Shown piece by piece: positions 1,507 to 61,886 of a DNA stretch of 64,000 nt. The DNA comes from Okeania sp. SIO1I7 (GTDB lineage: Bacteria > Cyanobacteriota > Cyanobacteriia > Cyanobacteriales > Microcoleaceae). The stretch spans positions 310,428-374,427 of the forward strand of contig JAAHGF010000013.1 in NCBI GenBank assembly GCA_010672585.1, read 5' to 3'. Below the pieces are notes generated by a model. That model was not told the DNA's origin. It worked only from the letters and a program-made list of their open reading frames with translations, and ran no database searches. Every line of letters begins with the position of its first letter. The first letter of the stretch is position 1. Made by a program: the position numbers and the translations under genes.

Positions 1507-1682
1507 TATCATGTCCGGTTGAACAGTTATAAATAAACGACGGAGTCCTCAGGAATCAACTCACCCCTAGCCCCTCCCCCTCGACTCCTGGGAGGGGAAG
1601 TCAGTAGTCAGGAGAAAATAAAGAAGAAGAAAGAGGAGGAGAAGGAAAAAGTTTTTTTATCGCTAATTATCCGGACATGATA
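1507..1682 (+). mobile_element. family A MITE, copy 1
   Basis: The 176-bp element begins TATCATGTCCGG and ends with the inverted complement CCGGACATGATA. It is flanked on both sides by TAA (1504-1506 and 1683-1685), a 3-bp target duplication. The interior has no ORF. It holds a GC-rich palindrome (P) near 1557-1600 and a purine-rich stretch of GAAGAAGA type. Inverted ends plus target duplication without a transposase are the definition of a MITE. Same family: 2067, 29094, 50694, 61500. Confidence 0.85.
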
Positions 1683-1761
1683 TAAATAGATAAAAATTGT
1701 GAATTATTACTTATTTTTATTAATCTCAATATCTTGTTTACACAACTCAAATAGATAGGTT

Positions 1762-1926
1762 TCAATAATGGATAATTGATAATGGATAATTGATAATTAC
1801 CTCTCCCTAAAAGGAAGAGGATTGAATAAAAAGAAAAAATTTATTTTTTTTTCCCTTGAAAGGGGAGGCTTTAAACCTGAATTATTGAATTATTGAATTA
1901 TTGAATTACTAATTATTCGGTAAAGA
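1762..1926 (+). repeat. family B AT-rich interspersed repeat
   Basis: The layout recurs at least ten times in the window: iterated ATTGATAATGGATA / AATTATT units, then TACCTCTCCCTAAAAGGAAG, a run of A and T, AAAGGGGAGGCTTTAAACC, more ATTATT units, and TTCGGTAAA at the right end. Confidence 0.6.
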
Positions 1927-2066
1927 CATACTATATTACAAGTTATACTAATTTTTCCTGATTACTTTGAGTCATATTTTAGAAAAATTAAAAACAACAA
2001 AATTATTGAGATGATCAAAAAAGATATCCTAATAAACTTAGTTTATCGCTCATTATTTTGACTTAA

Positions 2067-2196
2067 TATCATGTCCGGATAATTAGTGATGAAAAAAACC
2101 AAAACTGTCACTTGCAGTACAAATCTTTTTATTCTCCCTACTCCCTACTCCCTACTCCCTACTCCCTTATTTATAACTATTCAAACGGACATGATA
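2067..2196 (-). mobile_element. family A MITE, copy 2 (inverted relative to copy 1)
   Basis: The 130-bp element starts TATCATGTCCGGATAATTAG, which matches the right end of copy 1 read backwards, and ends CAAACGGACATGATA. TAA flanks both sides (2064-2066 and 2197-2199). The interior carries repeated CTCCCTA heptamers instead of the purine stretch of copy 1. Confidence 0.85.
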
Positions 2197-2555
2197 TAAT
2201 TTATAGCCATCCGTTCAGGATTTGTGAAAAATTTGAGAATAGTTAATACTATACCAAATTCACGCAAAAGCAGTTACATCTTAATTTTTGATTTATTCCT
2301 AAAATAAAAAATTATAAATTCCATAAATTATAAAATTTCCACTTTCTTTCTTCTTTAATATTTATGTTTTTCTTTCCCTGTTCCCAGCTCCGGTGTTCCC
2401 TGTGTCGCCACTGTAGCAATATTTTATGAAATTGGTATTAACTAAAAAAAAATTTAAATCCTGACATTACATGACAAATATCACTTCTAGTCAGCTCCAA
2501 AATGTTACAACTGAAATAACATTTCTATATAAACTACTGGACAAAACTTTAAACT

Positions 2556-4175
2556 ATGTTCAACGTAACAAAGGTTTCCTCTTTGCCCAAGGTCAAGTCT
2601 ACATTACCAACAGGATTCGTATTTGGAGCTGCAATGGTAGTAGCGATCGCCAGTGCAAGTGTAATTTATCAACTCAATCATATAACAGAAACGAGTAGTA
2701 ATGCCAGACTACTCTTAACTAAATTAAAAGAGCAAGTTAGCCGACTTAATTCTCTAGAATGGGAAGGTATTTCTAAAGGAGAAATAGATCAAAATTTAAC
2801 TGAAGAACTTGCTGAAAATAAAGAAAATACCGATGCAATTATTCAAGGAATTCAAGAACTTGAAGAACAGGACTATCTGAAAAATCTTTGGGAGCTATAT
2901 ACCAGTTATCAAGCCAAAATGGAAAGCTCCCTGGAGCTAATTGCTCAGAGAAAAATTCAGGAAGCAATAGAGATTAATGCCAATCAAATTGATGAAATTT
3001 ATGATGAGCTATACGATGAAATTCAAACCTTAGAAAAAGGCTATATAGAACAGCATCAGCAAACCAGAAAACTTGCCGATATTGGAACCACCTTTACCTT
3101 AATTATGGCAGCCCTTGTGATTGGTATTTTATCCTACATATTTAGTAAAAGATTGTTGAACAAAAATCAAGAATTAAAAGTTGCCTTAATCAATCTTCAA
3201 CAAGCACAAAATCAATTAATCCAACGAGAAAAAATGGCAGCTTTAGGGCAACTAATTGCTGGAATTGCCCATGAAATCAATAACCCCCTCGGCGCAATTC
3301 AAGCCTCAGCAAACAACACCGATAAAGCTTTGAAAGAAGTACTTAATCAACTCCCCCATTTACATCAAAGTCTGAGTTGCCAAGAAGAAAAAAATCTTTT
3401 TCAGCTCATCGATCAGGCACTCGAAAGCCAATCTTCTATTGCCTCTCAAGAAACTCGTGCCCTCAAGCGTAGAATTGCATCTAAACTTCGAGAAAATGAC
3501 ATTAAAAATGCTCGATATATAGCAGACCTCCTAGCAGACATGGGAGTTCCTGAAACCCCTGAACTGTGGCTACCCATACTCAAGAGTGAACAGGGAGAAT
3601 TTGCCATCGAATTTGCCTACAACTTAGCCTCCTCCTGTAATAACAATCAGATTATCCTCCGTGCCGTGGAACGCTGCTCCAAAACCATTTTTGCTCTCAA
3701 AAGCTATGCTCGTTTTCAGCCTTCAGGAAAGAAGCAGTTGGTAAAAGTAGTAAATGGCCTAGAAACTGTATTAGAAATTTATCATAATCAACTCAAACGT
3801 AATATCCATTTAATTCGAGACTATGAGGATATTCCTGATATCTGGGGATATACCGACGAACTGATTCAGGTATGGACAAACCTAGTCCACAATGCCATTC
3901 AAGCAATGGAATCAGGAGGGACACTAACAATTACCACTCGTAAACAGGAAAATGGCATTCAGGTGAGTATTCAGGACACCGGATTGGGAATTCCACCAGA
4001 AGTACAGTCCAAAATCTTTGATGCCTTTTTCACCACCAAGTCAGCAGGTGAAGGAAGTGGTTTGGGACTCCACATTTGTCAGAAAATAATTAACAAACAT
4101 CAAGGAAAGATTACAGTGGACAGTAAACCAGGATATACATTATTCTGTATAGAGTTGCCTATTAATTCTCCTTAA
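2556..4175 (+). CDS. membrane sensor histidine kinase
   Basis: This 539-residue kinase probably phosphorylates the receivers encoded just downstream. A first membrane helix lies at about residues 19-38 (PTGFVFGAAMVVAIASASVI) and a second at about 176-195, enclosing a helical sensor region of about 135 residues resembling four-helix-bundle sensors. A coiled coil follows. The H-box is MAALGQLIAGIAHEINNPLG with phospho-His 239. The second dimerisation helix (RAVERCSKTIFALKSYARF) comes only after an insert of about 110 residues, a layout I associate with a group of cyanobacterial kinases. The ATPase domain has N-box NLVHNAIQAM, DTGLGIPP and GSGLGLHICQ, so it looks catalytically complete. The ATG is the first one consistent with the membrane helix. 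No clear Shine-Dalgarno is seen. Confidence 0.92.
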   Translation: MFNVTKVSSLPKVKSTLPTGFVFGAAMVVAIASASVIYQLNHITETSSNARLLLTKLKEQVSRLNSLEWEGISKGEIDQNLTEELAENKENTDAIIQGIQELEEQDYLKNLWELYTSYQAKMESSLELIAQRKIQEAIEINANQIDEIYDELYDEIQTLEKGYIEQHQQTRKLADIGTTFTLIMAALVIGILSYIFSKRLLNKNQELKVALINLQQAQNQLIQREKMAALGQLIAGIAHEINNPLGAIQASANNTDKALKEVLNQLPHLHQSLSCQEEKNLFQLIDQALESQSSIASQETRALKRRIASKLRENDIKNARYIADLLADMGVPETPELWLPILKSEQGEFAIEFAYNLASSCNNNQIILRAVERCSKTIFALKSYARFQPSGKKQLVKVVNGLETVLEIYHNQLKRNIHLIRDYEDIPDIWGYTDELIQVWTNLVHNAIQAMESGGTLTITTRKQENGIQVSIQDTGLGIPPEVQSKIFDAFFTTKSAGEGSGLGLHICQKIINKHQGKITVDSKPGYTLFCIELPINSP

Positions 4176-4204
4176 ATTTTTAATCTGTGGAGCAAGATGA
4201 AAGT

Positions 4205-4597
4205 ATGTGTGATACAGCCATTCTCTGTGTAGATGATGAAATGCCTATTCTCAAGGTTCTCAAGGAACAACTACAACGTTGCTTCGGCAACAAGTATATT
4301 TATGAGGTTGCTCAAAGTGCTGAAGAAGCATGGGTTGTAATTGATGAGTTAGAAGAGGAAGACATTAAAATTCTGGCCATTGTTTCTGATTGGCTAATGC
4401 CTAATGTCAAAGGTGATGTGTTTTTAACCCAGGTCCATCAACGTTTTCCAAACGTAGTTACCGTAATGCTGACCGGACAAGCTGACGAAGTCGCCATTGA
4501 GCGAGCTAGAGAACAAGCCAACCTTTATGCTTGCATCCATAAACCCTGGACAGAAGAACAATTGCAGCAAATTATTAGTACAGCTTTAAATCGGTAA
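4205..4597 (+). CDS. stand-alone response-regulator receiver protein
   Basis: This receiver of about 130 residues has no output domain. It shows the acidic pocket in AILCVDDE, the phospho-Asp in IVSDWLMP, the Thr in VMLTGQAD and the Lys in HKPW. I place the start at the ATG at 4205 (MCDTAILCVDDE) because GGAG at 4189-4192 sits upstream; an in-frame GTG at 4187 would add six residues. The kinase stop is only about 30 bp away, so the two are probably co-transcribed. It likely acts as a phosphate shuttle or single-domain effector between the kinase and the REC-PAS-GGDEF protein. Confidence 0.9.
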   Translation: MCDTAILCVDDEMPILKVLKEQLQRCFGNKYIYEVAQSAEEAWVVIDELEEEDIKILAIVSDWLMPNVKGDVFLTQVHQRFPNVVTVMLTGQADEVAIERAREQANLYACIHKPWTEEQLQQIISTALNR

Positions 4598-4696
4598 GCT
4601 ATTCAGCATTTAATTTTGAAATGGGAATAGGATATTATTTAACAAAGGGTGTCGGGCCTTTAAAATCAAAATTAAAACCCACTACAGCTTTAGAAA

Positions 4697-6040
4697 ATGA
4701 AAGCAGCAATTATTTGTGTTGACGATGAGTGGACAATACTTACAACTTTGGGACAACAACTCAAGCGCTATTTTGGTAAAGACTATGAAATTGAGTTAGC
4801 CAATAGTGGTGCAGAAGCACTTTCACTCTGTGCAGAATTGACAGCAGAAGGTTTAGAAATTCCTCTAGTGATTTCCGATCAACGGATGCAAGGAATGGAA
4901 GGGGATACATTGTTGATTCAACTCCACAACCTTTATCCCAAAATGTTAAAAATTATGCTGACCGGGCAAGCTGATGCTGATTCAGTAGGGAATGTTGTCA
5001 ATGCTGCCGCCTTATACCGCTATATCCGTAAACCTTGGGATGAAACGGATTTAATTCTCACAGTTGCGGAAGCCTTGCGAAGCTTTGAGCAAGAACAACA
5101 ACTTGCTTATCAAAATACGTTACTCAAGGAAATTAATGCCAAGTTAGAAAGCTCTTTATCATTACTATTAGCGACTCTAGAAGCAACAATTGATGGAGTT
5201 CTGGTTTTAGACTTTGCTGGAAAAGTGGTCAGTTTTAATCAAAAGTTTGCTGCAATTTGGAATTTGCCTGCCTCAACCTCAACGGATGATAGCCAAAAGT
5301 TAGTTGATTTGATTTTAGAACCATTAATAGAAGCAGACGCGATCGCCTTTCAAGCATTACTTATACAAGAGAATATCAAAAAACGGGATTTATTAAGATT
5401 AAAAAATGGTAGTGTGATTGAGTATTATTTGCAGCCTCAACAGTTGGCAGGTAAAATTGTCGGGCAGGTATGGAGTTTCCGAGATGTAACTCAGGAAAAG
5501 CGAACAGAAGAAACCTTTAAACACCAAGCGTTGCACGATCCTCTCACTAAGCTCCCGAATCGAGCTTTATTCGATCAGAAACTTTCCGAAGCCCTAAACT
5601 ATGCAGCCTACCACTCAGAAATCATGGCAATGATGTTTCTTGATTTAGACCGGTTTAAGGAAGTTAATGATACATTCGGTCACTCAGTAGGAGACCTATT
5701 GTTACAGGGTGTTATTAAGCGTCTTGTCAGCTGTCTCAGGGAAGTTGATTTGATCGCGCGTTGGGGAGGAGATGAATTTGCGATCGTCTTGCCCCAAATT
5801 CGCTCTCGAAAGGATGCAGGAGAGATTGCTCATAGATTAGTTACAGCTCTGCAACCTGAATTTATTCTGGAAGGCCATCGTATTCATGCCACAGTTAGCA
5901 TCGGAATAGCAGTGTATCCTGATGATGGTTTAGATAGTGGCACATTACTTCGGAGTGCCGATCGAGCGTTGTACCACGCCAAAAAATCTGGGCGCAACAA
6001 TTATTCTAGTTTAGAGCAACTTACCGAAAAGCTAGGTTAA
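4697..6040 (+). CDS. response regulator with PAS and diguanylate cyclase (GGDEF) domains
   Basis: This 447-residue protein is predicted to make cyclic di-GMP under control of the upstream kinase. The receiver (about 1-125) has CVDDE, VISDQRM, IMLTGQAD and RKPW, strikingly like the preceding receiver. A helical linker and a PAS-like domain (about 150-270) follow, then the cyclase domain (about 280-440). The signature RWGGDEFAIVL is intact. REVD lies five residues before it, giving a canonical RxxD inhibitory site, so product feedback is likely. No EAL or HD-GYP partner is in the window. The gene lies 99 bp after the receiver gene on the same strand. Confidence 0.93.
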   Translation: MKAAIICVDDEWTILTTLGQQLKRYFGKDYEIELANSGAEALSLCAELTAEGLEIPLVISDQRMQGMEGDTLLIQLHNLYPKMLKIMLTGQADADSVGNVVNAAALYRYIRKPWDETDLILTVAEALRSFEQEQQLAYQNTLLKEINAKLESSLSLLLATLEATIDGVLVLDFAGKVVSFNQKFAAIWNLPASTSTDDSQKLVDLILEPLIEADAIAFQALLIQENIKKRDLLRLKNGSVIEYYLQPQQLAGKIVGQVWSFRDVTQEKRTEETFKHQALHDPLTKLPNRALFDQKLSEALNYAAYHSEIMAMMFLDLDRFKEVNDTFGHSVGDLLLQGVIKRLVSCLREVDLIARWGGDEFAIVLPQIRSRKDAGEIAHRLVTALQPEFILEGHRIHATVSIGIAVYPDDGLDSGTLLRSADRALYHAKKSGRNNYSSLEQLTEKLG

Positions 6041-6050
6041 GCTCTTTCTT

Positions 6051-6128
6051 GAGTGGGGGAGTGGGGGAGTAGGGGAGTAGGGAGTGGGGGAGTAGGGGAG
6101 TGGGGGAGTGGTGGAGTAGGGGAGTAGG
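6051..6128. repeat. tandem GTGGGGGA / GTAGGGGA repeat
   Basis: About ten imperfect units of GGGGAGT(A/G) follow the GGDEF stop codon directly. They resemble the short tandemly repeated repetitive sequences of filamentous cyanobacteria. No coding frame runs through them. Confidence 0.85.
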
Positions 6129-6225
6129 ACTAATTAAAAAATAAAGAGAGCATTGACTTAATCAGAGAATAACGATATAATAAGTTAAAAAGCATACTAT
6201 TTAGACCAGTTGCGCTCACGCATAC

Positions 6226-6715
6226 ATGAAATCCATTAGAACAAAGTTAAAACTTAATAACAAGCAAAAAACGCTCTTTGCTCAACACGCGGGCTACTCT
6301 CGATGGTGCTATAACTGGGGTTTAAGTTTGTGGAATGCTGCATATATTGATGGTTACAAGCCAAACGCTTCCTGCGGAATGCTGCGCAAACGTAAGCTCA
6401 GAGATGTGTTTACCAATCACACAAAACCTCTTTATCCCTGGATGAAAAACTTGTCGTCTAAAGTTTATCAATATGCTTTTATCAACTTATCTGAAGCGTT
6501 TCAAAGGTTCTTTAAAGGATTAGGTAAATATCCAAGATTTAAGAAGAAAGGTAGGTCTGATTCATTTCCAACGGAGATGCTTCCCTACGGGATGCTACGC
6601 AAACGCAAACACAATTGATAATTGTGGAAAGCCAATAGAATTAAACGGATGGAATCATAAATTACCTTTTATTGGTATGGTCAAAACTTATGAACCTATT
6701 GAGGCAACAGTAGGA
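6226..6715 (+). pseudogene. tnpB remnant (5' half), frameshifted and interrupted
   Basis: The start MKSIRTKLKLNNKQKTLFAQ and the following YSRWCYNWGL match the N-terminus of TnpB of the IS200/IS605 group; compare the intact copy at 57852. The first frame stops at 6618. A second frame continues GKPIELNGWNHKLPFIGMVK TYEPIEAT up to about 6715, where the repeat at 6718 cuts the gene. The RuvC catalytic residues are therefore missing. Two short dyad repeats sit inside the ORF, at 6369-6392 and about 6576-6610, and are translated as SCGMLRKRK and PYGMLRKRK. Confidence 0.85.
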
Positions 6716-6717
6716 CT

Positions 6718-6872
6718 AATTAGGGTCTGCTGAAAAAATTGGCTGGTGGGAGTAAGACATGGGGACGTGGAGACGCGGAGACGGGTCGATTTGTGGGGGA
6801 ACAGGCAACGGTTTCGACCATTTTATGTGAAGAAATTTTCTTGAATTTCAGCAGAAAATTTCAGTAAATTGG
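6718..6872 (+). mobile_element. family F MITE-like element, copy 1
   Basis: About 155 bp from AATTAGGGTCTGCTGAAAAA to TTTCAGCAGAAAATTTCAG. The ends contain inverted TCTGCTGAAA. A second copy in reverse orientation lies at 29318-29466 and shares the outer sequences and GGGGGAACAGGCAAC. It interrupts the tnpB remnant at 6226. No ORF is present. Confidence 0.65.
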
Positions 6873-6989
6873 TGCCAATAAGAGCCATAAACTTAGAGAT
6901 AAACTGAATATAAAAAGCTCAATTACCGTCAGCTATCCTGACTTTTAACTTTATGAGCGCAAACCCTAATTAAAAAATCTTGAAAGAGA

Positions 6990-7296
6990 TTGACATCCTC
7001 CCCGGCCTAAAGGCGCGGGGATTCCTACCGAGCCTTAGCTCTTCGGTGGGTTGACGTCTCACAGGCTGCTGCACCCACCCCTCTTGCTCCCCTCCCGGGA
7101 GGGGATGGGGGTGGGTTACACTTGCCTCCACGTCCGTTTTTTGTCTCGGACTGCCCGCCCGCGACTAATATGTTTATCGCTGCATTCTCGTCTCTATCAT
7201 GTTTTGCACCACAGTTGAGACACTCCCATTCTCGCACCTGAAGGTCTAGCTTCCCACCTTTAAAGCCACAATTTGAGCAAACTTGAGCCGATGCAA
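6990..7296 (-). pseudogene. tnpB 3'-end remnant with right-end hairpin
   Basis: The minus strand encodes SAQVCSNCGFKGGKLDLQVR followed by EWECLNCGAKHDRDENAAIN, the TnpB zinc ribbon (two CxxC) and the last RuvC Asp. The 5' two thirds are absent. The frame then runs through a GC-rich palindrome (7074-7116). The strand ends in the hairpin GACATCCTCCCC...GGGGATTCC (6990-7026), which is characteristic of the right end of this IS group. Confidence 0.8.
7074..7116. repeat. GC-rich palindrome P (in tnpB remnant)
   Basis: CCCACCCCTCTTGCTCCCC and its near inverted complement GGGGATGGGGGTGGG flank CTCCCGGGAG. On the minus strand it reads in frame as NPPPSPPGRGARGVG. Near-identical copy at 18533-18575; variants at about 1557, 21605, 29562, 39000, 42700 and 49412. 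Confidence 0.85.
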
Positions 7297-7351
7297 ATTT
7301 TTATGGAGATGGAAAATTCCGAAAAGCTAATTTCTTTAGCTCAACAGGTAA

Positions 7352-7565
7352 TTCATTAATTGATAATTGATAATGGATAATTGATAATTACCTCTGGTTA
7401 AAACCGTTACGGAATTGAATATCAGGAAATATTATTTCTTCTCTTGGTCGATGGTCGGACAGCGAGGAGACCTCGCCATCTCTCGACCGCTTTTTTCCCC
7501 TTAAAAGGGGAGGCTTCAAAGCGCGAATTATTTAATTATTAATTATTAATAATTAATAATTCGGT
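7352..7565 (+). repeat. family B repeat, long form
   Basis: ATTGATAATGGATAATTG units are followed by TACCTCTGGTTAAAACCG and TTACGGAATTGAATATCAGG, a GC-rich hairpin insert, TTAAAAGGGGAGGCTTCAAA, ATTATTAATT units and TTCGGTAAA. Copies in the same form lie near 24828, 38655 and 38800. Confidence 0.75.
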
Positions 7566-7568
7566 AAA

Positions 7569-8288
7569 AAAGAAGTAGAGAAATATTATCCGATTAAAAT
7601 TTTCTATCAAAATATTTCAGCTCAAATCTATAGACCCTTTTTTGAAGAAAATCAAATTCTGTTTCGCTTTACAGATATACAAGAGAATTCTCAAATAATT
7701 TTAGAATCTTGGAAATATATTAGCGAAACACTAGGTTCTATTCTAGAAATTTATATGAGAGTTTATTACACGCCAATACGTCATACTAAAGACTTATTCT
7801 TGAGTTTTGCTCAAGCAATTGAGGGATTTTATCGGATTCATCATAATGGAAAATATTGCGACGATTCAGTTTTTGATAATATTAGAGAGGAACTGAAAAA
7901 AGTTTTTTCAGCAGAGCTAAAAAAGCATAAAGTTAAGGAGGAATATCACGAATCTCTTTTAAATAAAACAAAATACTGGAATGAGTTTTCTTTAAAAGAA
8001 AGATTGGAAAATTTGTTTAAGGATGAAAAAATTTCTAGTTGTTTACCTGACAGATTATTTGAAAATTCAGATGCCAAGGATAAATTTGTTAAACAAGTCA
8101 GAGATACAAGAGGGAGTTTAACGCATCCTACGAGTAAAACAAACAAAACAAAAAGTAAATATATTGTGACAGATTCAGATTTAACACTACTTACAACAAA
8201 GTTAAAAATAATTCTAGAAGTCTGTCTATTGGAAACATTAAAAATACCTCCACCTAAAATAAAATCAATTATAGAACAGCCATATTAA
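7569..8288 (+). pseudogene. HEPN-domain (ApeA-like) protein, 5' end lost at a family B repeat
   Basis: An ATG at 7755 gives 177 residues, but the same frame is open upstream to about 7569 (KKEVEKYYPIKIFYQNISAQ and onward), so the true protein is longer. The C-terminal part has FLSFAQAIEGFYRIHHNG, and DTRGSLTHPT fits the R-x4-H ribonuclease motif of HEPN domains. The layout resembles Apea-like HEPN proteins linked to phage defence. The N-terminal domain is missing: the family B repeat ends exactly where the frame opens. A short run before the repeat (7303 onward, MEMENSEKLISLAQQ) may be another piece, but in a frame shifted by one base. It may still be expressed from an internal start. Confidence 0.6.
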
Positions 8289-8432
8289 AGTGCATTTGTG
8301 GGGTTTATTTTGTGGAGAAGCTACGAAGATCGTTCCTAAACCAAACCTACAAAACTACAAAACTTATAGCATATTCTGTGATTAATGTGGTACAAAATCA
8401 TGATAGGAATTGTGCAATTTGGTATTAGTGGG

Positions 8433-8632
8433 GGTAGGAGTCAGGAGTCAGGAGAAACAGAGGAATTTAGAGGAGGTAGAAGTAAGAATTTTCCCTCAAT
8501 TTTTCTGTTCTTGATTTGCCCTAAATGTGCTCCTTTTTGAACATTTTAGACTAAAACAAGCACACTTTTGGGGAATCTCAGAAGGATAAAACTTATATCT
8601 GTAAATGCTTTTATAGTTAATCAGCAAACCCT
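8433..8632 (+). repeat. family C element, 5'-truncated
   Basis: It contains GGGGGTAGGAGTCAGGAG, TTTTAGACTAAAACAAGCAC and the right end CAGCAAACCCT of family C, but lacks the AGGGYTTGC left end. Confidence 0.6.
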
Positions 8633-8699
8633 AATTATTAATTATTAATTATTAATTATTAATTGTTGAATTCTCCCTCACTCCCCTACTCCATTTCAG

Positions 8700-13843: not shown

Positions 13844-13889
13844 CAGTTGTTCTGTCTTCCCTCAAAATCAAAAACTTCTACAAATTTTG

Positions 13890-24482: not shown

Positions 24483-24530
24483 TATCATGTCGGTTTAATT
24501 AACAATCATCAAGTTCTTAGGTGGTAGGTC
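24483..24530 (+). repeat. family A solo left end
   Basis: TATCATGTCGGTTTAATTAA preceded by TAA, with no matching right end within 300 bp. One base is missing from the TCCGG core. Confidence 0.5.
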
Positions 24531-28590: not shown

Positions 28591-29093
28591 CATACTCTCT
28601 GGCGGTCAGACACGAAAATTATTCTCCAACCAGGATTATACCAAGCGCGATAAATGTTTGCTACATTTTCTTGGGTGTTGGTAATTGCTAAGATGATTTT
28701 CTAGGGGTAACAGCTCTTGCCTACTCTGGTTGGGTATTTACAACTATCACAGGGGAATAAACCTTAAGGTTTCATCTTTTAATTTACCAACGCTTTTTCT
28801 TGAGTAGGGGAGTAGGGGGGGAGTGGTTAGGGATGTTGTATCCCACATTCCACAGGTCAATTTGTAATATACAAAGTAGCACAAAATTTTCTAGCCCCCT
28901 AGGGTCTGTCATCAATTAGAACTTATAAGCTTTGTGAGTCAAGGTTTTTAGCGTCTGGAGTCTTTCCAGGCCAAAAGTTCAAAACTCTTGCTACATAGCA
29001 CTTTCAGATTTAATTGGGGCTTGCGCTCATAAAGCTAAAAGTCAGGATAGCTAAGACTTAGGAGCTTTTCATGTTCAATTTATATCCTAGTTA

Positions 29094-29297
29094 TATCATG
29101 TTCGGTTGAATACTTATAAATAACTGTTGTGAGAAGTCAGTCCTCAGGAGGGAAGAAAGGAGGAATACATAGAAAATATTGGAGAAAAGCATTGATAATT
29201 TCAGTATTTCTTTGGTACTGTCGCTACCCGGAGTCCTTAAATTTTATTATAACTGACCCGTCCGTTAGCGTAGCTCCCCCGGAGGGGGAACATGATA
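29094..29297 (+). mobile_element. family A MITE, copy 4, carrying a short dyad repeat
   Basis: TATCATGTTCGG...GAACATGATA with TTA on both sides (29091-29093, 29298-29300). The sequence is nearly identical to the copy at 61500, except for a 24-bp insertion in the right inverted end (29265-29288). Confidence 0.9.
29265..29288 (+). repeat. 24-bp short dyad repeat inserted in a MITE
   Basis: It consists of TTAGCGTAGCTCCCCC followed by GGAGGGGG, with a hairpin CTCCCCCGGAGGGGG. The sister MITE at 61500 reads GTCCGAACATGATA across the same site without it. Confidence 0.9.
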
Positions 29298-29317
29298 TTA
29301 TTAGCTAGTTTTGCATC

Positions 29318-50557: not shown

Positions 50558-50693
50558 CATTACCTCCTTTTCATTTAAATACTAAATAGCTATCTTAGGA
50601 TTAATCTACTATATTTATTTCTGGTCGTGATTAAAACTTTAGGCTTAATTAAGTTTAATAATTCATGTCCTAATTTTTTCAATTTCCCTCTAA

Positions 50694-50852
50694 TATCATG
50701 TCCGGTAGCATCGGTATTGTATAGAGGAGGTAAAGAAGAAGGAAGAAGGAAGAAGGAAGAAGGAAGAAGCTTTAAGAAAAGGAAAAATTTTACTTATATG
50801 GCGGTAAATATTTCCCCAACTTTCACACGGGACTATACCAACGGACATGATA
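50694..50852 (+). mobile_element. family A MITE, copy 5
   Basis: 159 bp, TATCATGTCCGGTAGCATCG to CCAACGGACATGATA, TAA on both sides (50691-50693, 50853-50855). The interior holds five GAAGGAA heptamers. Confidence 0.85.
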
Positions 50853-50855
50853 TAA

Positions 50856-52007: not shown

Positions 52008-52351
52008 TATTCTATTTCTCCTAATCTATTGATATACACAGTTTTTTAAGTACCTAACGGTAAAAATTAAACTGTAGAAATTTAAACAGTTTACTTAATT
52101 GTTAGTAGGTAAATCAAGTAATGACTGCATGATGCAGCTTACTATTATCTAAACTCAGAAAGTCTATGAAAATAATTTTTCTACTTGTTGGTTTTCACTG
52201 CTTAAACGTCTCGCAAATTATCTCTTCCTTGCTCTAATTCTATAGAAACTTTGGGAGATATATTTTTGTCCAACAAGACAAATTTAGTCATAGACTATTA
52301 AGCCCTATCCACTATACCTTATCAGGTTCTACGGCTTAAACTAACCTTTTT

Positions 52352-52798: not shown

Positions 52799-52956
52799 TC
52801 TAAGAAGTCTTGTGCAATATTAAACTATAAAGTTTTTTCTTGAGTTTATACATTTGGCACATCTACAATCTCAGCTTTTGCCTGACGAATCATATCTATC
52901 TATAATGGATTAAAAAACCGTGAAATGTATCTGTGAAAAGCTATGCTTGATTTGAT

Positions 52957-53970: not shown

Positions 53971-53995
53971 GGTAACACAAGCTCATTACTTGTGT

Positions 53996-54123
53996 GAATT
54001 CTCTTTTGGTTAAGCACTAAATATATCAGTAATAAACTTATTGCCCCTAAAATAGCATAGGTTTCTACAGGATTATTACTGAGTTCTTCTTCTACTGCAC
54101 CCCCTCTGACTATCTTACTTATA
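53996..54123 (-). other. short membrane-type frame without a start codon
   Basis: Between DUF3120 and the cyclase gene the minus strand is open for about 50 codons: NISKIVRGGAVEEELSNNPV, ETYAILGAISLLLIYLVLNQ. It looks like a single membrane helix with a loop, but has no ATG, GTG or TTG at its head and begins just after a TAG. It is either a frameshifted tail of the preceding gene or chance. Confidence 0.3.
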
Positions 54124-54819
54124 TTAGGCTAAACAAGCAGCTAATAGAAATATACTGTCCACTAAAATTGTACTTAATACTGCTGCTCCAAACGCCCAAA
54201 AGTGTAACTTTCTTGATTGTAAAGGTACAAGACCAAAAAGTAATAGAACTCCCACTAAAACAAATATCCAAATTATTCCCCAGGAAGTATTTACTTTAGT
54301 AAAAGCATCTTGGAATACCTCTAAGGCCATATCTGGTTCAACAATCATTAATCGTCGCCAATAAGGAATTAGGCCAGTTATGTAAAAGTATCCGTCTGTA
54401 ACTGCTGTACCTAATAGAGAACCAAGGTAAAAACAGTTACCTATCATTTCTCTTTTGTGCGCCAAACACCACAAAGCAAAAGGTACACATATCGCCTCAA
54501 CTGGTAAATGGAGGAGTGGTTCCTGTCGTAGCCAACCCCAGTATATTGAGCCTGTGAACCAACTCCAAGTAAATCCCAATAATAGATCGCCCCATATATG
54601 GGTATCTCTATCTTTAAGTAATTTTAAACTTAGCCAGAACCAGAAGCCAGTCATAGCCAAACTTAACCAAGGTAGTTGACGTACCATTGGAGCTTGAAAA
54701 AATACTGGCACTGACACTAGAAATACGGCAGTAAAAAACACAGCCCATTTTTGGCTGATTCTAATTTTTTCAGAAAAAAAGAAAAATAAATTTATCCCAA
54801 ACTTTTCTGGGTAAAGCAT
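54124..54819 (-). CDS. DUF3120 family membrane protein
   Basis: A cyanobacterial membrane protein of unknown function, about 231 residues from ATG 54819; an in-frame TTG at 54852 would add 11. Recognised by WAVFFTAVFLVSVPVFFQAP, QLPWLSLAMTGFWFWLSLKL and GDLLLGFTWSWFTGSIYWGW LRQEP. Seven hydrophobic segments are visible. It may be co-transcribed with the FHA-cyclase gene, and is divergent from uppP. Confidence 0.88.
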   Translation of the reverse strand: MLYPEKFGINLFFFFSEKIRISQKWAVFFTAVFLVSVPVFFQAPMVRQLPWLSLAMTGFWFWLSLKLLKDRDTHIWGDLLLGFTWSWFTGSIYWGWLRQEPLLHLPVEAICVPFALWCLAHKREMIGNCFYLGSLLGTAVTDGYFYITGLIPYWRRLMIVEPDMALEVFQDAFTKVNTSWGIIWIFVLVGVLLLFGLVPLQSRKLHFWAFGAAVLSTILVDSIFLLAACLA

Positions 54820-54908
54820 TGTGAATATAGCAAATAAAGTATTATTAAACAAGATATTTTTAATATTTTTTACTTAACTTTATCTAATTTAACATATTAT
54901 ACTGATTA

Positions 54909-54967
54909 TCCCCTCCTGGGGCATTTTTATAGTAACAGCTATTTTATCCCCTAGTAGGGGATTTTTT
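54909..54967 (+). terminator. two tandem hairpins with T-runs upstream of uppP
   Basis: Hairpin 1: CCCC-TCCT-GGGG then CATTTTT (54910-54927). Hairpin 2: ATCCCCTAGTAGGGGAT then TTTTT (54946-54967). Both have the shape of intrinsic terminators on the plus strand, yet lie in a divergent promoter region with no plus-strand gene before them. Confidence 0.55.
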
Positions 54968-55090
54968 AGGAAGAGTTAATAACAAACGAAAATCCTATGG
55001 AATCAAGAGTTTTGAGGAGTGAAAACTCAAAAAAGTGGTAATACTTCTGATGCTATAATCAAGCAATAATTCTATTTAAGACCCTACTGA

Positions 55091-56038
55091 ATGAAATTCT
55101 TATTTGCTGTCATTCTCAGCGCCCTAATTTTTATATCTATAGAAAAAGTAGGCCAATCATTACCTTTAGACCCGACTTCCACCTCCGAGCAGCTCTCACA
55201 AATGAATATTTTTCAAGCAGTTATTCTAGGGATGGTACAAGGGTTAACAGAATTTTTACCCATTAGTAGTACAGCTCACCTCAAGATTGTTCCTGTCGCC
55301 CTGGGTTGGGGAGACCCTGGTGTGGCTTTTACTGCTGTGATTCAGTTGGGCAGTATTTTTTCAGTTGTTTGGTATTTTTGGCAGGACTTGACAAAGATTG
55401 CGGTTGGTGCATATAAATCTATAGTGAAATCCGATTACCAGTCTCCAGATTTCCGCATGGCAGTTGGAATAGCATTGGGAACCATACCAATAGTATTTTT
55501 TGGGTTATTAATCAAAATATTTATTCCAGATTTTGATAACTCGGTCTTGCGCAGTACAGTGGCGATCGCTATTGCTTCTATAGTTATGGCTTTATTATTA
55601 GGAATAGCAGAGAAAATTGGCAGTCGAAAACGTAACTTTGAGCAACTAGGTATTAAAGATGGCATACTCATGGGATTAGCTCAAGCATTGGCATTAGTCC
55701 CCGGAGTATCTCGCTCTGGCTCAACTATTACAGGTGGCCTATTTATGGGATTAGAAAGGGCTACAGCAGCAAAATTTTCTTTTTTATTGGGTCTTCCAGC
55801 GATTACTTTAGCAGGTTTAGTTGAACTGAAGACTCTATTAGATGAGGGTTTTGGGGGTGTGGGTTTAGCACCTACTATTGCTGGAATTATATCTGCAATA
55901 ATTTTTTCTTACATAGCAATTGCTTGGTTGATTAAATACTTACAAACTAAAGATACATGGATATTTGTTTGGTATAGATTAGCTTTTGGGGTATTAATTT
56001 TAGTGGCGATCGCTGGTGGTGTAATGCAAAATAAATGA
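55091..56038 (+). CDS. uppP: undecaprenyl-diphosphatase
   Basis: This enzyme (also called BacA) removes a phosphate from undecaprenyl pyrophosphate to recycle the lipid carrier for peptidoglycan and glycan synthesis. The 315-residue membrane protein has both signature motifs, GLTEFLPISSTAHL and PGVSRSGSTITGGLFMGL, which form the active site. About 38 residues (MKFLFAVILSALIFISIEKV and a Ser/Thr linker) precede the usual start (MNIFQAVILGMVQG), giving an extra signal-like helix. Translation from the internal Met is possible. Two hairpins lie in the upstream region. Confidence 0.96.
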   Translation: MKFLFAVILSALIFISIEKVGQSLPLDPTSTSEQLSQMNIFQAVILGMVQGLTEFLPISSTAHLKIVPVALGWGDPGVAFTAVIQLGSIFSVVWYFWQDLTKIAVGAYKSIVKSDYQSPDFRMAVGIALGTIPIVFFGLLIKIFIPDFDNSVLRSTVAIAIASIVMALLLGIAEKIGSRKRNFEQLGIKDGILMGLAQALALVPGVSRSGSTITGGLFMGLERATAAKFSFLLGLPAITLAGLVELKTLLDEGFGGVGLAPTIAGIISAIIFSYIAIAWLIKYLQTKDTWIFVWYRLAFGVLILVAIAGGVMQNK

Positions 56039-56040
56039 TT

Positions 56041-56101
56041 TGAAGAAGGAAGAAGGAAGAAAAAAGAAGGAAGAAAGAAGAAAGAAGAAAGAAGAAAGAA
56101 A
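56041..56101. repeat. tandem GAAGAAA / GAAGGAA repeat
   Basis: About eight units of the heptamers GAAGGAA and GAAGAAA begin 3 bp after the uppP stop. Confidence 0.85.
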
Positions 56102-56392
56102 GACTGAAGTTTGGAAATAATGGATAGGGACAATGTAACAGTTGCCGATCCGATCACTCAATCTCCAAGCAATTGTAGAAACTGCTCATCAAGTTTGGGG
56201 TATTAAACTCATAAGAGAAAAGATAAATCTAAGTTGGGATTATTTTGACCGAAAATTTTTGGTCAATAGCCTCCTCTTTTTAGGGGATAAATATTCGCCA
56301 AGGTCAAGCCTCCTGATTGCAGAGGTACTGATAACTGATAACAGAAATGGCTTTTGTTGAAGTTTGAATCAATCAAAACTATCAAAATTGAA

Positions 56393-56417
56393 CCCATCCA
56401 AGAATTTCTTAGATGGG
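56393..56417 (-). terminator. probable apcD terminator
   Basis: CCCATCCAAGAA and TTCTTAGATGGG pair around a TT loop. On the minus strand the hairpin is followed by TTCAATTTTGATAGTTTTG. It lies 28 bp after the apcD stop. Confidence 0.5.
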
Positions 56418-56444
56418 GAGTAAAGCTACAAAAAACAAAAAAAC

Positions 56445-56930
56445 TTAGGACATGGCCTGAATGATATAGTCAAAGTAAGGAGCAGTTTCCTGAACATCTT
56501 CTTCATCAAGTAAAGCAAGAGAAGCTTCCTTCAAACAACGAATTGACTCTACCATTCCAGGAACAGGTACACCCAATGAGTTGTACATTTCCCGAACACC
56601 AATCAAACCAATACTTTCAATTGGATCTTTATCACCAGCTAGTACCCCATAAGTAATCAAACGCAAGTACCAACCATAATCCCGGAGGCACAAGGCACGC
56701 TCGCGTTGACCAAAAGCATTACCACCAGGGGCAATAAAATCTGGACGCCTGCGCCACAACTCTTGACTAGCTTTGTCTACAATTTTTTTCTCATTTTCAG
56801 AAAGTACGCTAGCAATACGCACGCGCTGGTCGCCTGTTTTTAAAAAAGTATTTATGGCTTGAAGCTCCCCACTACTGGGGTAACGTAATTCATCGTCTGC
56901 TTTGAGAATAACTTGGCTAACTACACTCAT
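56445..56930 (-). CDS. apcD: allophycocyanin alpha-B chain, phycobilisome terminal emitter
   Basis: ApcD sits in the phycobilisome core and passes excitation to chlorophyll, mainly to photosystem I. I place the start at ATG 56930 ([20 protein letters not shown]), giving the standard 161 residues; the frame begins three codons earlier. Chromophore Cys81 lies in [20 protein letters not shown]. The sequence matches ApcD rather than ApcA ([13 protein letters not shown] start, [13 protein letters not shown] end). Monocistronic. Confidence 0.95.
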
Positions 56931-57051
56931 AATTATCAAAAAATTTCAGAATTATATTTCATTTTAGCTATTTACGACCTTTCTCAATCATCAAATTTGA
57001 GTGATTTAATTTGAGAGATTTATTGGTATTTTTGAATAGCGGATATTAATT

Positions 57052-57120
57052 AGGAGTCAGGAGTCAGGAGTTAGGAGTCAGGAGTCGGGAGCAGGAAGTT
57101 AGGAGTTAGGAGTCGGGAAT
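57052..57120. repeat. tandem AGGAGTC heptamer repeat
   Basis: Eight to nine units of AGGAGTC / GGGAGTC / AGGAGTT, about 110 bp upstream of the apcD start region. Confidence 0.85.
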
Positions 57121-57234
57121 TTAGAAAAGTAGAAAAGAATTTTTATTACCTTTAATTAATGACTAAAATGATTTTGCTAATTAATGATTTTTAATAAAAA
57201 ATTATCGGCGATCTGAAATAATTAATCTTGGCAA

Positions 57235-57662
57235 TTGACATCCTCTCCGTGCTTAAGCGACGGAGATTCCCACATCACTGTGAGACTTTCCTCTTTCGTC
57301 GAGTCAACTTACTTGCCTGAGTTTCCTCAAGCAAGCAGAGGTCGTTCTCTCCGGAGGCGTGACTTTCCCTGTGCCCCAGGGTAGTTGATAATTGTTTTAG
57401 TCCTGCTTGGAGGATATTAATTGCAGCATTTGCCTCCTACGGAGGAGCTACGCTAACGTCCCTATCTGCTTCATAACCACAATGTGGACATTGATGAGTT
57501 CTGGTGCTGAGAGTTTTGACAACAGTTTCACCACAGTTAGAACAGTTTTGAGATGTATAAGCAGGTTCTACTGCAATTACAGGTATCCCATAAATACTGC
57601 CAAAATATTCTAACCATTCTCTAAATCTGTACCATGCTGCATCTGCTATTGATTTTGCGTTT
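57235..57662 (-). pseudogene. tnpB 3' remnant with right-end hairpin
   Basis: The minus frame reads AWYRFREWLEYFGSIYGIPV IAVEPAYTSQNCSNCGETVV, HQCPHCGYEADRDV, then NAAINILQAGLKQL. This is the zinc ribbon and last Asp of TnpB with a dyad repeat (57430-57460) inserted between DRDV and NAA. It ends at the hairpin TGACATCCTCTCCGTGCTTA ...GACGGAGATTCCC (57236-57271). The N-terminal two thirds are gone. Confidence 0.8.
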
Positions 57663-57851
57663 CTTTACGATCAAATTATACCAGACAAATAAAGTACTTG
57701 CCAGCTCTAATTAACCGTTCTACTAAACTTACCCAAACTTACCCAAAATGGTATTTTGAGCTTTGGAGCTAGCTTCCTGTTTCACTGAAGACCACTGACC
57801 GCAGTCTGTAACTTATCTTCTCCACAGGCTTAAAATCGGCGGAAACTCCAC

Positions 57852-58919
57852 CTACTGATGCACATAGTTTTCCAAGTTGACAGCAGCATTAAAGTCTCTG
57901 TCTACATGAAATCCGCAGTTGCCACATTCGTAAGTTCTTGCACTCAATGGCATTTTCTGTTGATACCCACAGTGAGAACATATTTGAGAACTTGGGTAAA
58001 ATCTATCTGCTATCACTAGCTTGCTTCCATACCACTCGCACTTGTATGTTAGCTGACGCTTAAACTCATAAAAACCACAGTCTGCTATAGCACTTGCCAG
58101 CTTGTGGTTTTTGAGCATTCCACTTACATTTAAGTCTTCTATCACTATGGTGCTGTGGTTTTTAGCTAACCATGTTGTGAGTTTATGTAATGCGTCTGCT
58201 CTGATGTCAGCTACTTTTTTGTGCGCCTTGGCTAGTTTTTTTACTCCTTTCCTTCTGTTTTTGGAACCAGGATCTTTTTTGTTAACACGGCGCTGATAAC
58301 GAGCTAGTCTCTTTTTGGCTTGCTTATAGGCTTTAACGTTAGCAAATCGGCTTCCATCACTACAAGTTGCTAGAGCATTTATACCTACATCCACACCGAT
58401 AATATCTCGTTCTTTTGTAGTAGGGTTGGGTTGATAATCATATTTAAAACTAATGTACCAATCACCTGCGCGTTTGGATATTCTCACATTTTTTACTGGT
58501 ACAGATGGTAAGATTTCATAAGTTTTTACTATTCCTATTCTTGGTAGTTTTATATAGTTTCCTTGAATAATTTTGATACTTCCTTCTAAATAGAAACTAT
58601 CTTTTTTTCCTTTTTTCTTGAATTTAGGAAATCCGCGCTTGGGAATAGTTAAAAAATTTTTAAACGCTCTGTCTAAATCTCTTAATGCCTGTTGAGGTGC
58701 ACATTTTGATACTTCATAATACCAGGGATTTTGACTTTTAACTTCAGCAACCAAACGTTTATGTAAGGTAACTGCACTAGGTCGTTTTTTCGTTAATTCA
58801 TATTCAGTAATACAAGTAGTTAATCCCCAATTATAAGCATGACGAGCCACACCTGCGTGTTTGGCAAGTATTGTTTTTTGGTAATTGTTAACTTTTAACT
58901 TGGTCTTGATTGATTGCAT
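57852..58919 (-). CDS. tnpB: RNA-guided endonuclease TnpB, apparently intact
   Basis: 355 residues from ATG 58919 (MQSIKTKLKVNNYQKTILAK); an in-frame GTG at 58931 adds four. TnpB cuts DNA with a guide RNA made from the element's right end and helps keep the transposon. All RuvC residues are present: D177 in GVDVGINALA, E261 in TIVIEDLNVSG and D342 in HVDRDFNAAVNL. The zinc ribbon has C314/C317 and C332/C335. The N-terminal helix-turn-helix and a Lys-rich segment are complete. No tnpA accompanies it, so mobility would need a transposase in trans. It is the only whole intact tnpB among 13 or more in the window. Confidence 0.93.
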   Translation of the reverse strand: MQSIKTKLKVNNYQKTILAKHAGVARHAYNWGLTTCITEYELTKKRPSAVTLHKRLVAEVKSQNPWYYEVSKCAPQQALRDLDRAFKNFLTIPKRGFPKFKKKGKKDSFYLEGSIKIIQGNYIKLPRIGIVKTYEILPSVPVKNVRISKRAGDWYISFKYDYQPNPTTKERDIIGVDVGINALATCSDGSRFANVKAYKQAKKRLARYQRRVNKKDPGSKNRRKGVKKLAKAHKKVADIRADALHKLTTWLAKNHSTIVIEDLNVSGMLKNHKLASAIADCGFYEFKRQLTYKCEWYGSKLVIADRFYPSSQICSHCGYQQKMPLSARTYECGNCGFHVDRDFNAAVNLENYVHQ

Positions 58920-58931
58920 TTGAACACGCAC

Positions 58932-59126
58932 ACCATGAAAAAAAGTCTTTGATTATGTTAGGATAATTTTATATGTATGATAGCAGATAATCAGCAGTTA
59001 TTCAATCTTTCTTAACATTTGTCCAACTTTGTCCAATTATTGGGCTTCAGTAGTTAGCCCCTAAAAGGGGGAGGCTTTAAACCCAATTTTCCGGTAAAAG
59101 TAATATTATTCTTAGGTAATGAATGA
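58932..59126. other. tnpB-rlmD divergent spacer
   Basis: It holds the presumed left end of the tnpB element and the tail of a family B repeat (GAGGCTTTAAACCCAATTTT CCGGTAAAA, 59068-59098). A putative rlmD promoter lies here but is not resolved. Confidence 0.4.
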
Positions 59127-60614
59127 GTGAATATCAATAATCAAAACTTGGCTACACTACCTTGTCAACAAGGTCAACTTCTGGAAATAACCATCACAGA
59201 CCTAACAGATAGTGGTGATGGAGTAGGTCGCTACGGTCAAAAAGTCATATTTGTGCCTGATACAGTTCCGGGCGATCGCCTACTTACTCGTCTAACAGTG
59301 GTCAAACCAAAGTATGCTTATGGGAAATTACACCAACTCCTAGAAACATCCAAATATCGCATAAAACCCTATTGTATAGTTGCAGACAAATGTGGTGGTT
59401 GTCAATGGCAGCATATTAGTTATGAATATCAACTCCAAGCGAAACAAAATCAAGTTATTCAAGCTTTAAAGAGAATAGGAGGGTTAACATTATCAGTAGT
59501 AGATCCAACTCTAGCATCTCCAGCAGCTTTTGGATATCGTAACAAGGCTACATATCCTTTAAGTATTTCTACTACAGGTCAAGTTAAAGCTGGCTATTAT
59601 CAAAAAGGTAGCCATAAAGTGATTAATCTAAATCAATGTCCTATCCAAGACCAACGTTTGAACCCTTTACTCAAAGAAGTAAAACAGGATATTACTAGGC
59701 AAGGCTGGAAAATATATGATGAACAAAAACATACAGGCATTGTACGCCACTTATCTTTGAGGATAGGTAACAACACAGGAGAAATATTGTTGACTTTGGT
59801 TGTAAATGGAGAGGAGGAAAAAACAAAAGAATTATTGCCAGGTATCGAAGTTCAAGCACAAAAATGGCTAGAAGATTATTCTCGGTTAGTGGGTGTTTGT
59901 GTGAACTACAATTCCAAGGCAACAAATACTATTTTTGGTCAACAGACTGTTTGTATTGCTGGTCGGTTGTATCTGCAAGAAGAGTTTAGTGGTTTAAATT
60001 TTCAATTGACCCCCGATACTTTTTTCCAGGTAAATACAAAGACTGCTGAAAAATTAATAGAGGTAGTGATTCAAGAGTTGGCTTTGAATGGGTCGGAGAT
60101 TATTATTGATGCTTATTGTGGAATTGGTACTTTCACTTTACCTCTAGCCAAATATTTGCAGCAGATTGGTGTTGATGATAACTACTCTATGGAAATAGCG
60201 GGTGAGGAGTTGTTACAAATGGGGGCTAGAAAGGGTCTGGTCGTTGGTATAGAAGTTCAACCAGTTTCTATAAAACAGGCTCAGTTTAATGCTGAAATTA
60301 ATCACTTGACAAATGTAAGTTTTTCTGCTGGAAAAGTGGAAGATTTGCTGCCTCAGTTGGAGGTCAAGCCAGATGTGGTTTTGTTAGACCCGCCGAGAAA
60401 AGGTTGCGATCGCTCTGTTTTAGAAACTCTTTTAGAAATTCTACCTGAACGTATAGTTTATATTAGTTGTAAACCTGCTACTTTGGCTCGCGATCTGAAA
60501 TTTCTATGTTCGACAGGTAAGTATGAGTTGAGTAAAGTACAACCTGCGGACTTTTTTCCTCAAACTGCTCATGTGGAATGTGCTGCATTTTTAGCAAGAA
60601 AAAAGTCAAAATAA
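59127..60614 (+). CDS. rlmD: 23S rRNA (uracil-C5)-methyltransferase RlmD
   Basis: It methylates a conserved uridine (U1939 in E. coli numbering) of 23S rRNA. 495 residues from GTG 59127; the nearby ATG 59123 is in another frame. A TRAM domain (about 15-75, GQLLEITITDLTDSGDGVGR) is followed by the iron-sulfur Cys cluster CIVADKCGGCQWQH and the SAM-binding segment EIIIDAYCGIGTFTLPLAKY. VLLDPPRKGCDRSVLETLL and VYISCKPATLARDLKFL contain the catalytic Cys. A stretch of about 30 residues around QQIGVDDNYSMEIAGEELLQ interrupts the SAM domain and looks like a lineage insert. Confidence 0.93.
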   Translation: MNINNQNLATLPCQQGQLLEITITDLTDSGDGVGRYGQKVIFVPDTVPGDRLLTRLTVVKPKYAYGKLHQLLETSKYRIKPYCIVADKCGGCQWQHISYEYQLQAKQNQVIQALKRIGGLTLSVVDPTLASPAAFGYRNKATYPLSISTTGQVKAGYYQKGSHKVINLNQCPIQDQRLNPLLKEVKQDITRQGWKIYDEQKHTGIVRHLSLRIGNNTGEILLTLVVNGEEEKTKELLPGIEVQAQKWLEDYSRLVGVCVNYNSKATNTIFGQQTVCIAGRLYLQEEFSGLNFQLTPDTFFQVNTKTAEKLIEVVIQELALNGSEIIIDAYCGIGTFTLPLAKYLQQIGVDDNYSMEIAGEELLQMGARKGLVVGIEVQPVSIKQAQFNAEINHLTNVSFSAGKVEDLLPQLEVKPDVVLLDPPRKGCDRSVLETLLEILPERIVYISCKPATLARDLKFLCSTGKYELSKVQPADFFPQTAHVECAAFLARKKSK

Positions 60615-60808
60615 GTAAAGTAGTTTTGGCAATTTTTCTGTAATCAACTCGCTTTCAACTGAATAAATATTGATAGAAAGTGGGAATTAATTCAACAGTT
60701 GATGAAATCAACTGTTGAGATATTTTCTAGCAGAGGAAGCAAAATTTACAGAGATATTTTACTGATATTAATTATATTAATCTACAGCACATTGAAAAAC
60801 TAATAATT

Positions 60809-61886
60809 ATGAAATTAGCTACAGCATTTATTTCTACTACAGACTATTTTGAAAGGGAAAAAACCAATCCCATTCGCCATGAATATTTCGACGGTGAAAT
60901 TTTCCCTATGTCTGATGGCAACGAAGAGTATAGCAATGTGCGCTGGCATATTTACAAATTACAGTAACTGTCCAATAGCTAAAAGTCTGATATTATCGGC
61001 TTTTTATTCCCCCAGATGAGCTGTTGCCTTCCGGAGCTGTTGCCTGCGGACAGTGCTATATAACCATATTGCATTAAATATAGTTAGTTTTTTACGTTTG
61101 AATTTACACGGAAGTGGATATAAAACATTTATTGCAGAGATGAAAGTTAAGAACGCTATTTCTGAATAGTGGTACTTAGACATTTTTTGGCAGAAAAAAT
61201 GCTTGAAAGTCAGTCTAGACAAAGGAGTTACGTCAACGCCCTAAAAATGGCTAAAATCCTTTATTATCAAGGGTTTATACCTTTTCGACGTGAAATTCCC
61301 TTCCTGTATATATTTGAGCCTATTTTCTGCTGCTATTTTGTGTAAGTCCCGATAGTTCGGATATTTTTTACTAACCTGATGTGATGGTGACTTGTCTACC
61401 CGAAGAATACAGAAAAATATGACAAGAGTTATCCTTGTTTAATTATTGAAGTACTCTCCTCTTCCACCAAAGAAGTAAATCGGCGATAAAAACGCCTAAT
61501 ATCATGTTCGGTTGAATACTTATAAATAACTGTTGTGAGTCATCAGGAGTCAGTCCTCAGGAGGGAAGAAAGGAGAAATACATAGAAAATATTGGAGAAA
61601 AGCATTGATAATTTCAGTATTTCTTTGGTACTGTCGCTACCCGGAGTCCTTAAATTTTATTATAACTGACCTGTCCGAACATGATATAAATTACCAAAGT
61701 TGAGCAAGTTTGCAAGAGTATATATTGATTTCTCAAACAGAAATAAAGGTAGAAATTTATCGTCCATTAGAAGCTGGTTGTTGGTTTAGAGAAAGTTTAG
61801 GAAAGGAAGATTGTTTAAAGTTGAATTCAGTGGGATTAACTTTCACAATTGCTAATATTTATGATGAAGTTTTGACTGGAGAATAA
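60809..61886 (+). pseudogene. Uma2-family endonuclease, split by two insertions
   Basis: Uma2 (DUF820) proteins have a PD-(D/E)xK nuclease fold. The start MKLATAFISTTDYFEREKTN PIRHEYFDGEIFPMSDGNEE is normal to about 60966. A 390-bp unrelated insert follows, then PDVMVTCLPEEYR and, after a frameshift, YDKSYPCLIIEVLSSSTKEV NRR with two stops nearby. The family A MITE at 61500-61686 comes next, then NYQSxASLQEYILISQTEIK VEIYRPLEAGCWF to a stop at 61886. Removing the MITE and one TAA rejoins the codons as CGC CTA AAT TAC CAA in frame. Confidence 0.85.
61500..61686 (+). mobile_element. family A MITE, copy 6, inside the Uma2 gene
   Basis: 187 bp, TATCATGTTCGGTTGAATAC to CTGTCCGAACATGATA, with TAA at 61497-61499 and 61687-61689. 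Nearly identical to 29094-29297 minus the 24-bp dyad repeat. Confidence 0.92.

Follow-up and report, generated by a model that had tools for sequence, protein, structure and literature searches.

What moves a family of short repeats whose ends are fixed and whose interiors vary, and how much of the adjoining DNA is duplicated when they insert? The question is raised by the window studied here, a stretch of 64,000 nucleotides from Okeania sp. SIO1I7 (C15:310428-374427 of assembly G000, which comprises 9,479,399 bases in 109 contigs). An original prediction, made from the letters of the window, held that the repeats are miniature inverted-repeat transposable elements (MITEs) with a 3-bp TNA target duplication, mobilized by a transposase of the IS1031 type, in the IS5 family. 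The first part of that prediction is borne out by our data, and the second is not. The repeats are, in our view, very probably MITEs belonging to a subgroup of the IS630-family insertion sequences (ISs) and mobilized in trans by a transposase of IS630 type, which recognizes inverted ends of the TATCATGTYCGG kind and inserts at TNA. The mover is probably to be reassigned from IS5 to an IS630 subgroup, and the interest of the locus centres on the 3-bp TNA duplication of this subgroup and on the spacing of 31 residues between the second catalytic aspartate and the glutamate.

Repeats of the window and their flanks

The five complete copies lie exactly where they had been predicted. Two are of the A type: one of 176 bp on the minus strand (1507-1682), with AL as its left and AR as its right end, and one of 130 bp in the other orientation, on the plus strand (2067-2196). 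The remaining three, all on the plus strand, are a C-type copy of 204 bp with its right end altered by a palindrome (29094-29297), a B-type copy of 159 bp (50694-50852) and a C-type copy of 187 bp (61500-61686). In each case the left end is an exact TATCATGTYCGG, and the right ends have zero to two mismatches. All five have the same 3 bp on both sides: TAA at 1504-1506 and 1683-1685, TAA at 2064-2066 and 2197-2199, TTA at 29091-29093 and 29298-29300, TAA at 50691-50693 and 50853-50855, and TAA at 61497-61499 and 61687-61689. The window contains seven exact TATCATGTYCGG sites, compared to 0.012 predicted from base composition, and no open reading frames of at least 100 amino acids were found to overlap the five copies.

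Genome-wide, exact ends number 309 in the forward and 301 in the reverse direction (610 in total), versus 1 and 2 for the reversed pattern. Four genomes of the same genus contain 494 to 1,535 exact ends each, and at least one was present in 27 of the 39 genomes included in this search, G000 being one of the 39. We collected pairs of ends from 861,883 bases (the window, the whole of contig C1, and C15:1-200000), retaining those with at least one exact end and dropping those without an exact end or longer than 600 bp. This sample gave 31 pairs of 125-315 bp, with a median of 156, while the reversed-pattern control gave none in the same bases. Copies lacking matching 3-bp flanks would have contradicted the predicted duplication; in this sample, 29 of the 31 pairs have identical flanks (TAA 17, TTA 9, TGA 2, TCA 1), and the other two have TAA/TCA and TTA/AAA. 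With the two sides aligned as direct repeats, agreement at the three flank positions is seen in 30, 29 and 31 of the pairs, and at neighbouring positions in 4-14. The middle base N agrees across sides in 29 of the 30 pairs with TNA on both, where chance agreement would be 0.26 per pair. Being short, devoid of coding capacity, bounded by terminal inverted repeats and present in many copies, the repeats have the traits of MITEs.

Empty sites and the extent of the duplication

We compared insertion sites between G000 and a genome of the same genus (G002), in both directions, for 44 pairs (31 from G000 and 13 from G002). Thirty-one had no two-sided match in the compared pieces, four were occupied, one was of another size, and eight were empty. 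At the empty sites, where the flanks are 85-100% identical between the two genomes, exactly one TNA was present in all eight cases, with no additional TA. The triplets are TAA in four, TTA in two, TGA in one, and TTA in one whose element now carries TTA/CTA. Two of the eight correspond to the window copies at 50694 and 61500, each of these sites being empty with a single TAA in G002. The presence of a single TNA at every empty site indicates that TNA is the target duplication and that the TA following it is part of the element. A target duplication that exists in single copy at empty sites, another trait of MITEs, is thus observed.

Longer elements with the same ends

In G000, a pair of such ends 1,418 bp in extent (C1:312275-313692) encloses broken frames with IS630 features. 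Relatives yielded nine more elements with such ends, measuring 1,141-1,323 bp except for one of 844 bp, apparently shortened by an internal deletion. Among these ten longer elements, TNA flanks are identical in six and unequal, with TNA on both sides, in four. A Pfam search with three transposase pieces gave no match for two and a chance-level match for the third; as these pieces were uninformative, we turned to the open frames of relatives. L035, from genome G011, has ends TATCAAATCCGG and an open frame of 353 residues, and is identical to L079 from Microcoleaceae cyanobacterium MO_207.B10. Its frame matches the IS630 model NF033545 at 7.2e-69 and 232.5 bits (cut-off 100) and PF13358 at 2.1e-21; the curated NF033545 cut-off is also reached by the frames of L042, L037 and L053. 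A PDB sequence search gave no match. Longer elements with these ends therefore carry IS630-family transposase frames, which argues against the IS5/IS1031-type mover originally proposed.

The same flanks were seen in a set of 80 loci from named genomes, of which 18 were dropped for want of a complete end pair. For the 62 loci with both ends, the 3-mers are identical in 41 (TAA 19, TTA 14, TCA 5, TGA 3), and 123 of the 124 flanks are TNA. The complete genome G031 contains a 1,166-bp relative (35% identical over the matched part) with ends TACGGAATCC, and identical TNA flanks surround 10 of its 10 copies (TCA 6, TGA 2, TTA 1, TAA 1). For G013 the corresponding figure is 6 of 7, three of its ten loci having been dropped because they had no complete pair. 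Similarity between MITE and IS ends extends beyond the 12-bp core: when compared with a hand-picked panel of 41 IS ends, 47 of 62 MITE ends match at 14 or more of 20 positions, versus 10 of 2,000 random 40-mers, and all 31 pairs have at least one end that does so.

Two elements of reduced length have the ends of longer IS630 elements, namely the 844-bp element mentioned above (contig C230 of G002; L033:904-1747) and one of 756 bp in Scytonema tolypothrichoides (L126:1960-2715); these are possible half-way stages between IS and MITE. Near the middle of the transposase gene, TGG is followed by an A-run in 74 of the 80 loci L079-L158 (8 A in 51, 9 A in 21, 7 A in one and 10 A in one). With nine A, L035 keeps a single frame, and with eight (L037, L052) or ten (L038) the frame is split, a pattern that suggests programmed slippage. 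Finally, contigs C15 and C47 of G000 both begin (C15:2-97 and C47:2-97) inside one stretch of an IS630 transposase gene, and it is probably at a repeated, potentially intact transposase copy that the assembly breaks.

Extent of the 3-bp rule and the catalytic spacing

To assess how far the rule extends, we used multi-copy IS630 families drawn from 59 genomes of the phylum, taking as boundaries the points where copies diverge. Nine families, here termed TA-type, have common cores with TA at both extremities, usually in the form TATAGY or TTACAGC. In seven of these nine, with 25 copies in all, the triplets just outside the core match in only 1 of 25, and hence no variable base is duplicated there. 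In the 3-bp families, by comparison, equal flanks were found in 10/10 copies of G031a, 3/3 of G057a and 3/3 of G034b.

A tree was computed from 30 catalytic domains, 7 of 37 sequences having been dropped because they had no usable one. The 22 three-bp rows (including L035, L052 and G047b, labelled as such although the copy used has unequal TNA flanks) and the 8 TA rows are separated by a single branch, with support of 97/92 and present in 98% of 200 bootstrap trees. The number of residues between the second aspartate and the glutamate is 31 in all 22 three-bp rows, while in the TA rows it is 34 in six, 36 in one and 43 in one. Tc1-like members have about 34 residues at this place. Two traits of IS630, the 2-bp TA duplication and the spacing of ∼34 residues, are thus absent from the probable parents of these MITEs.

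Plasmid relatives extend the same association. Sixteen loci were hand-picked from 70 listed matches of 418 records, and 15 are of the 31-spacing kind; cyanobacteria, Deinococcota and alphaproteobacteria are represented among the copies with TNA flanks. Ends were recognizable in 12 of the 15, and were not found in the relatives from Polaromonas, Rhizobium and T. oshimai. Identical TNA flanks are present in 10 of the 12 (nine scored by script and ISAcma28 read by eye), and unequal TNA in those of T. thermophilus (TTA/TCA) and Sphingobium (TAA/TTA, by eye). The spacing reads 31 in 13 of the 15, with ISAva6 and Methylocystis giving no reading by the motif used. The sixteenth relative, from Gloeothece, has a spacing of 36 and TA. 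On balance, we favour the view that IS630 elements with a 31-residue spacing form a large, cross-phylum subgroup that targets a 3-bp TNA, the other members of the family using a 2-bp TA, and in which the stagger would have shifted along with a three-residue change near the active site and the old TA been absorbed into the element.

Alternative explanations

Mobilization by an IS1031-type element would fit the target duplication. The IS1031 group of the IS5 family duplicates 3-bp TNA, and G000 contains ten IS5-type (PF01609) matches. However, this duplication is a shared trait and not decisive for membership; the transposase family is a different one, none of the ten matches (DDE_Tnp_1 model PF01609 only) is bracketed by two such ends in the 1.5 kb of flanking sequence covered, and the elements that do bear these ends encode IS630-family proteins. 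An IS5 mover is therefore largely refuted and, in our estimation, most improbable. It might instead be supposed that the mover is an ordinary IS630 element with a 2-bp duplication, the TA of TATCATG being the target and TNA a mere flanking preference. This would agree with the TA for which the family is known (PMC2170065) and with the fact that TCATG is bordered by TA at both ends. Yet the variable N is shared by the two sides far more often than chance predicts, duplications of TGA and TCA leave no room for a TA reading, and the eight empty sites, each with one TNA and no extra TA, rule out a TA duplication. For these MITEs the idea is refuted, and we give it virtually no weight.

Another possibility, which is a variant of the IS630 explanation and not its opposite, is that several related but separate transposases are at work, one per end type, instead of a single mover for all TATCATGTYCGG ends. 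Several end types do exist: the 31 pairs comprise AL+AR (9), AR+CL (3), BL with BR, BR2 or E (7), CL+CR (4), AL+D (2), CL+E2 (1) and five with one end of no assigned type. Moreover, different IS lineages have similar ends, and G000 yielded no intact gene. On the other hand, end types with more than one partner suggest common recognition, and the 125-bp element at C15:105876-106000 combines ends of two groups (E2 and CL) and has TAA duplicated on its two sides, an indication that ends of different groups can pair. Multiple movers are thus a serious, if tentative, possibility.

Several observations weigh against the explanation we prefer, that of MITEs moved by an IS630 subgroup with a 3-bp target. 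Under the pair criteria, 17 of the 61 exact ends of the sample have no partner. A profile search of G000 found no intact transposase of the group; it returned ten fragmentary matches, the longest covering about half of the profile, and none among the matches listed was above the IS630 cut-off. The first transposase piece, used as query, hit two places in G000 and no intact parent. The mover assigned to this genome is therefore a putative one, which may or may not be active today. Flanks are unequal in 21 of the 62 longer elements from named genomes, although 20 of these 21 have TNA on both sides and differ at N alone. Such flanks are compatible with recombination between copies or with misjoined draft contigs, explanations that we prefer because random mutation would also strike T and A; the MITEs may keep equal flanks more often (29/31) through being short. 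Among the multi-copy families, one G034b copy duplicates TTC, which is not TNA, and G047b has equal flanks in only 1 of 3 copies, the other two being reciprocal (TTA/TGA and TGA/TTA), the arrangement expected after recombination between copies. The TA-type label, in turn, reflects the family rule together with cores bounded on both sides by TA or TATA, and does not separate a TA from a TATA duplication. Lastly, the tree program gave a long-branch warning among the TA rows.

Comparison with known elements

IS630 is the bacterial branch of Tc1/mariner, and a TA target is treated as its hallmark. The elements described here resemble ISY100 of Synechocystis and IS630 of Shigella sonnei in transposase family (NF033545), element size, terminal inverted repeats and the possession of a single DDE transposase. 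They differ in having a 3-bp TNA in place of a 2-bp TA duplication, TA inside the element, and 31 instead of at least 34 residues. The named IS630 elements ISAva6, ISAzs14 and ISAcma28, which share 40%, 30% and 34% identity with the L035 protein in the matched part, likewise have TA-starting ends and TNA flanks (TAA, TTA and TTA); their inverted repeats are different (TACTRAAT.., TACCARAGCC.. and TACCAATTC.., respectively). We found no mention of ISAva6 in the open-licence literature, nor did our searches of it turn up any report of bacterial IS630 elements that duplicate a 3-bp TNA, although ISfinder curators may know single cases. A survey of Thermus gives its IS630 element 2-bp repeats (PMC6352166), and the ISY100 study concluded that transposition does not differ fundamentally between the bacterial and the eukaryotic members (PMC2170065).

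An altered duplication is also a feature of the Fot and Sailor branches of the IS630-Tc1-mariner group. TAA or TAAA is reported for Fot and Fot-like pogo elements (PMC7386202) and TATA for Sailor (PMC8533490). Their catalytic spacings are different, being DD35D and DD78-111E, and the available excerpts of the two reports describe no variable middle base in the duplication (PMC7386202, PMC8533490). MITEPlu5 of Photorhabdus is similarly a high-copy MITE tied to IS630 through its ends, but is described with a TA duplication (PMC6267812). The MITEs of Anabaena sp. strain 90 are cyanobacterial too, with 147 copies that are mostly intergenic, and were described without a recognized parent IS (PMC3542288).

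The subgroup may transpose by a cut-and-paste process using DDE chemistry in which the two points of strand transfer lie 3 bp apart, not 2. Repair of this stagger would duplicate TNA, and the TA that canonical IS630 elements duplicate would be kept by the element, whose inverted repeat would open with these two bases. If the stagger did shift along with the spacing throughout the subgroup, target stagger would be an evolvable trait that can be predicted from sequence, and the limits given for many bacterial IS630 elements and their MITEs would be off by two bases; since both ends start with TA, annotation can mistake it for the duplication. A clade in which the stagger differs and the spacing has changed to match would provide natural pairs for asking what sets the stagger of a DDE transposase. 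For the genus itself, a probable kind of mover can now be named for hundreds of repeats per genome.

Interiors of the elements

The interiors had been described as different between copies with fixed ends. They do vary, but largely as shared skeletons with variable arrays, nested palindromes and several end types. The skeleton of the two A-type copies of the window recurs in ten further A-type copies from the sample, and the 29094 and 61500 copies have most of their skeleton in common. The twelve A-type copies have in common a left end, a heptamer array and a right end, the last being similar over ∼40 bp. The array consists of AGGAGTC and variants, or of a different heptamer at the same place; a CCCCTCCC..GGGAGGGG module is sometimes present, and a purine-rich stretch usually. 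Of the 31 elements, 25 contain arrays with a period of 7 or 14, and agreement at lag 7 is 0.44, compared to a background of 0.27. In the window, such arrays were delimited by eye at 2134-2168 (ACTCCCT unit, within the 2067 copy) and at 50733-50769 (purine unit AAGAAGG, within the 50694 copy). This variety may have arisen by slippage in heptamer arrays, nesting of palindromic repeats and movement of DNA between compatible ends.

The place of the array is constant and the sequence of its unit varies between A-type copies (e.g. C1:229124-229258), as if place rather than sequence were maintained. The solo end predicted at 24483 is present on the plus strand (24483-24493, preceded by TTAA), though as an imperfect end, TATCATGTCGG, that is one base short; no partner was identified for it. 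In the 29094 copy, a palindromic GC-rich sequence (CCCCCTCCGGGGGAG..) occupies positions 29262-29289 of the right terminal repeat, with limits set by eye against the 61500 copy. The same altered right end recurs at two more places on contig C1 (ends 91445 and 336655), and either the palindrome targets that site or the altered C-type element has itself transposed.

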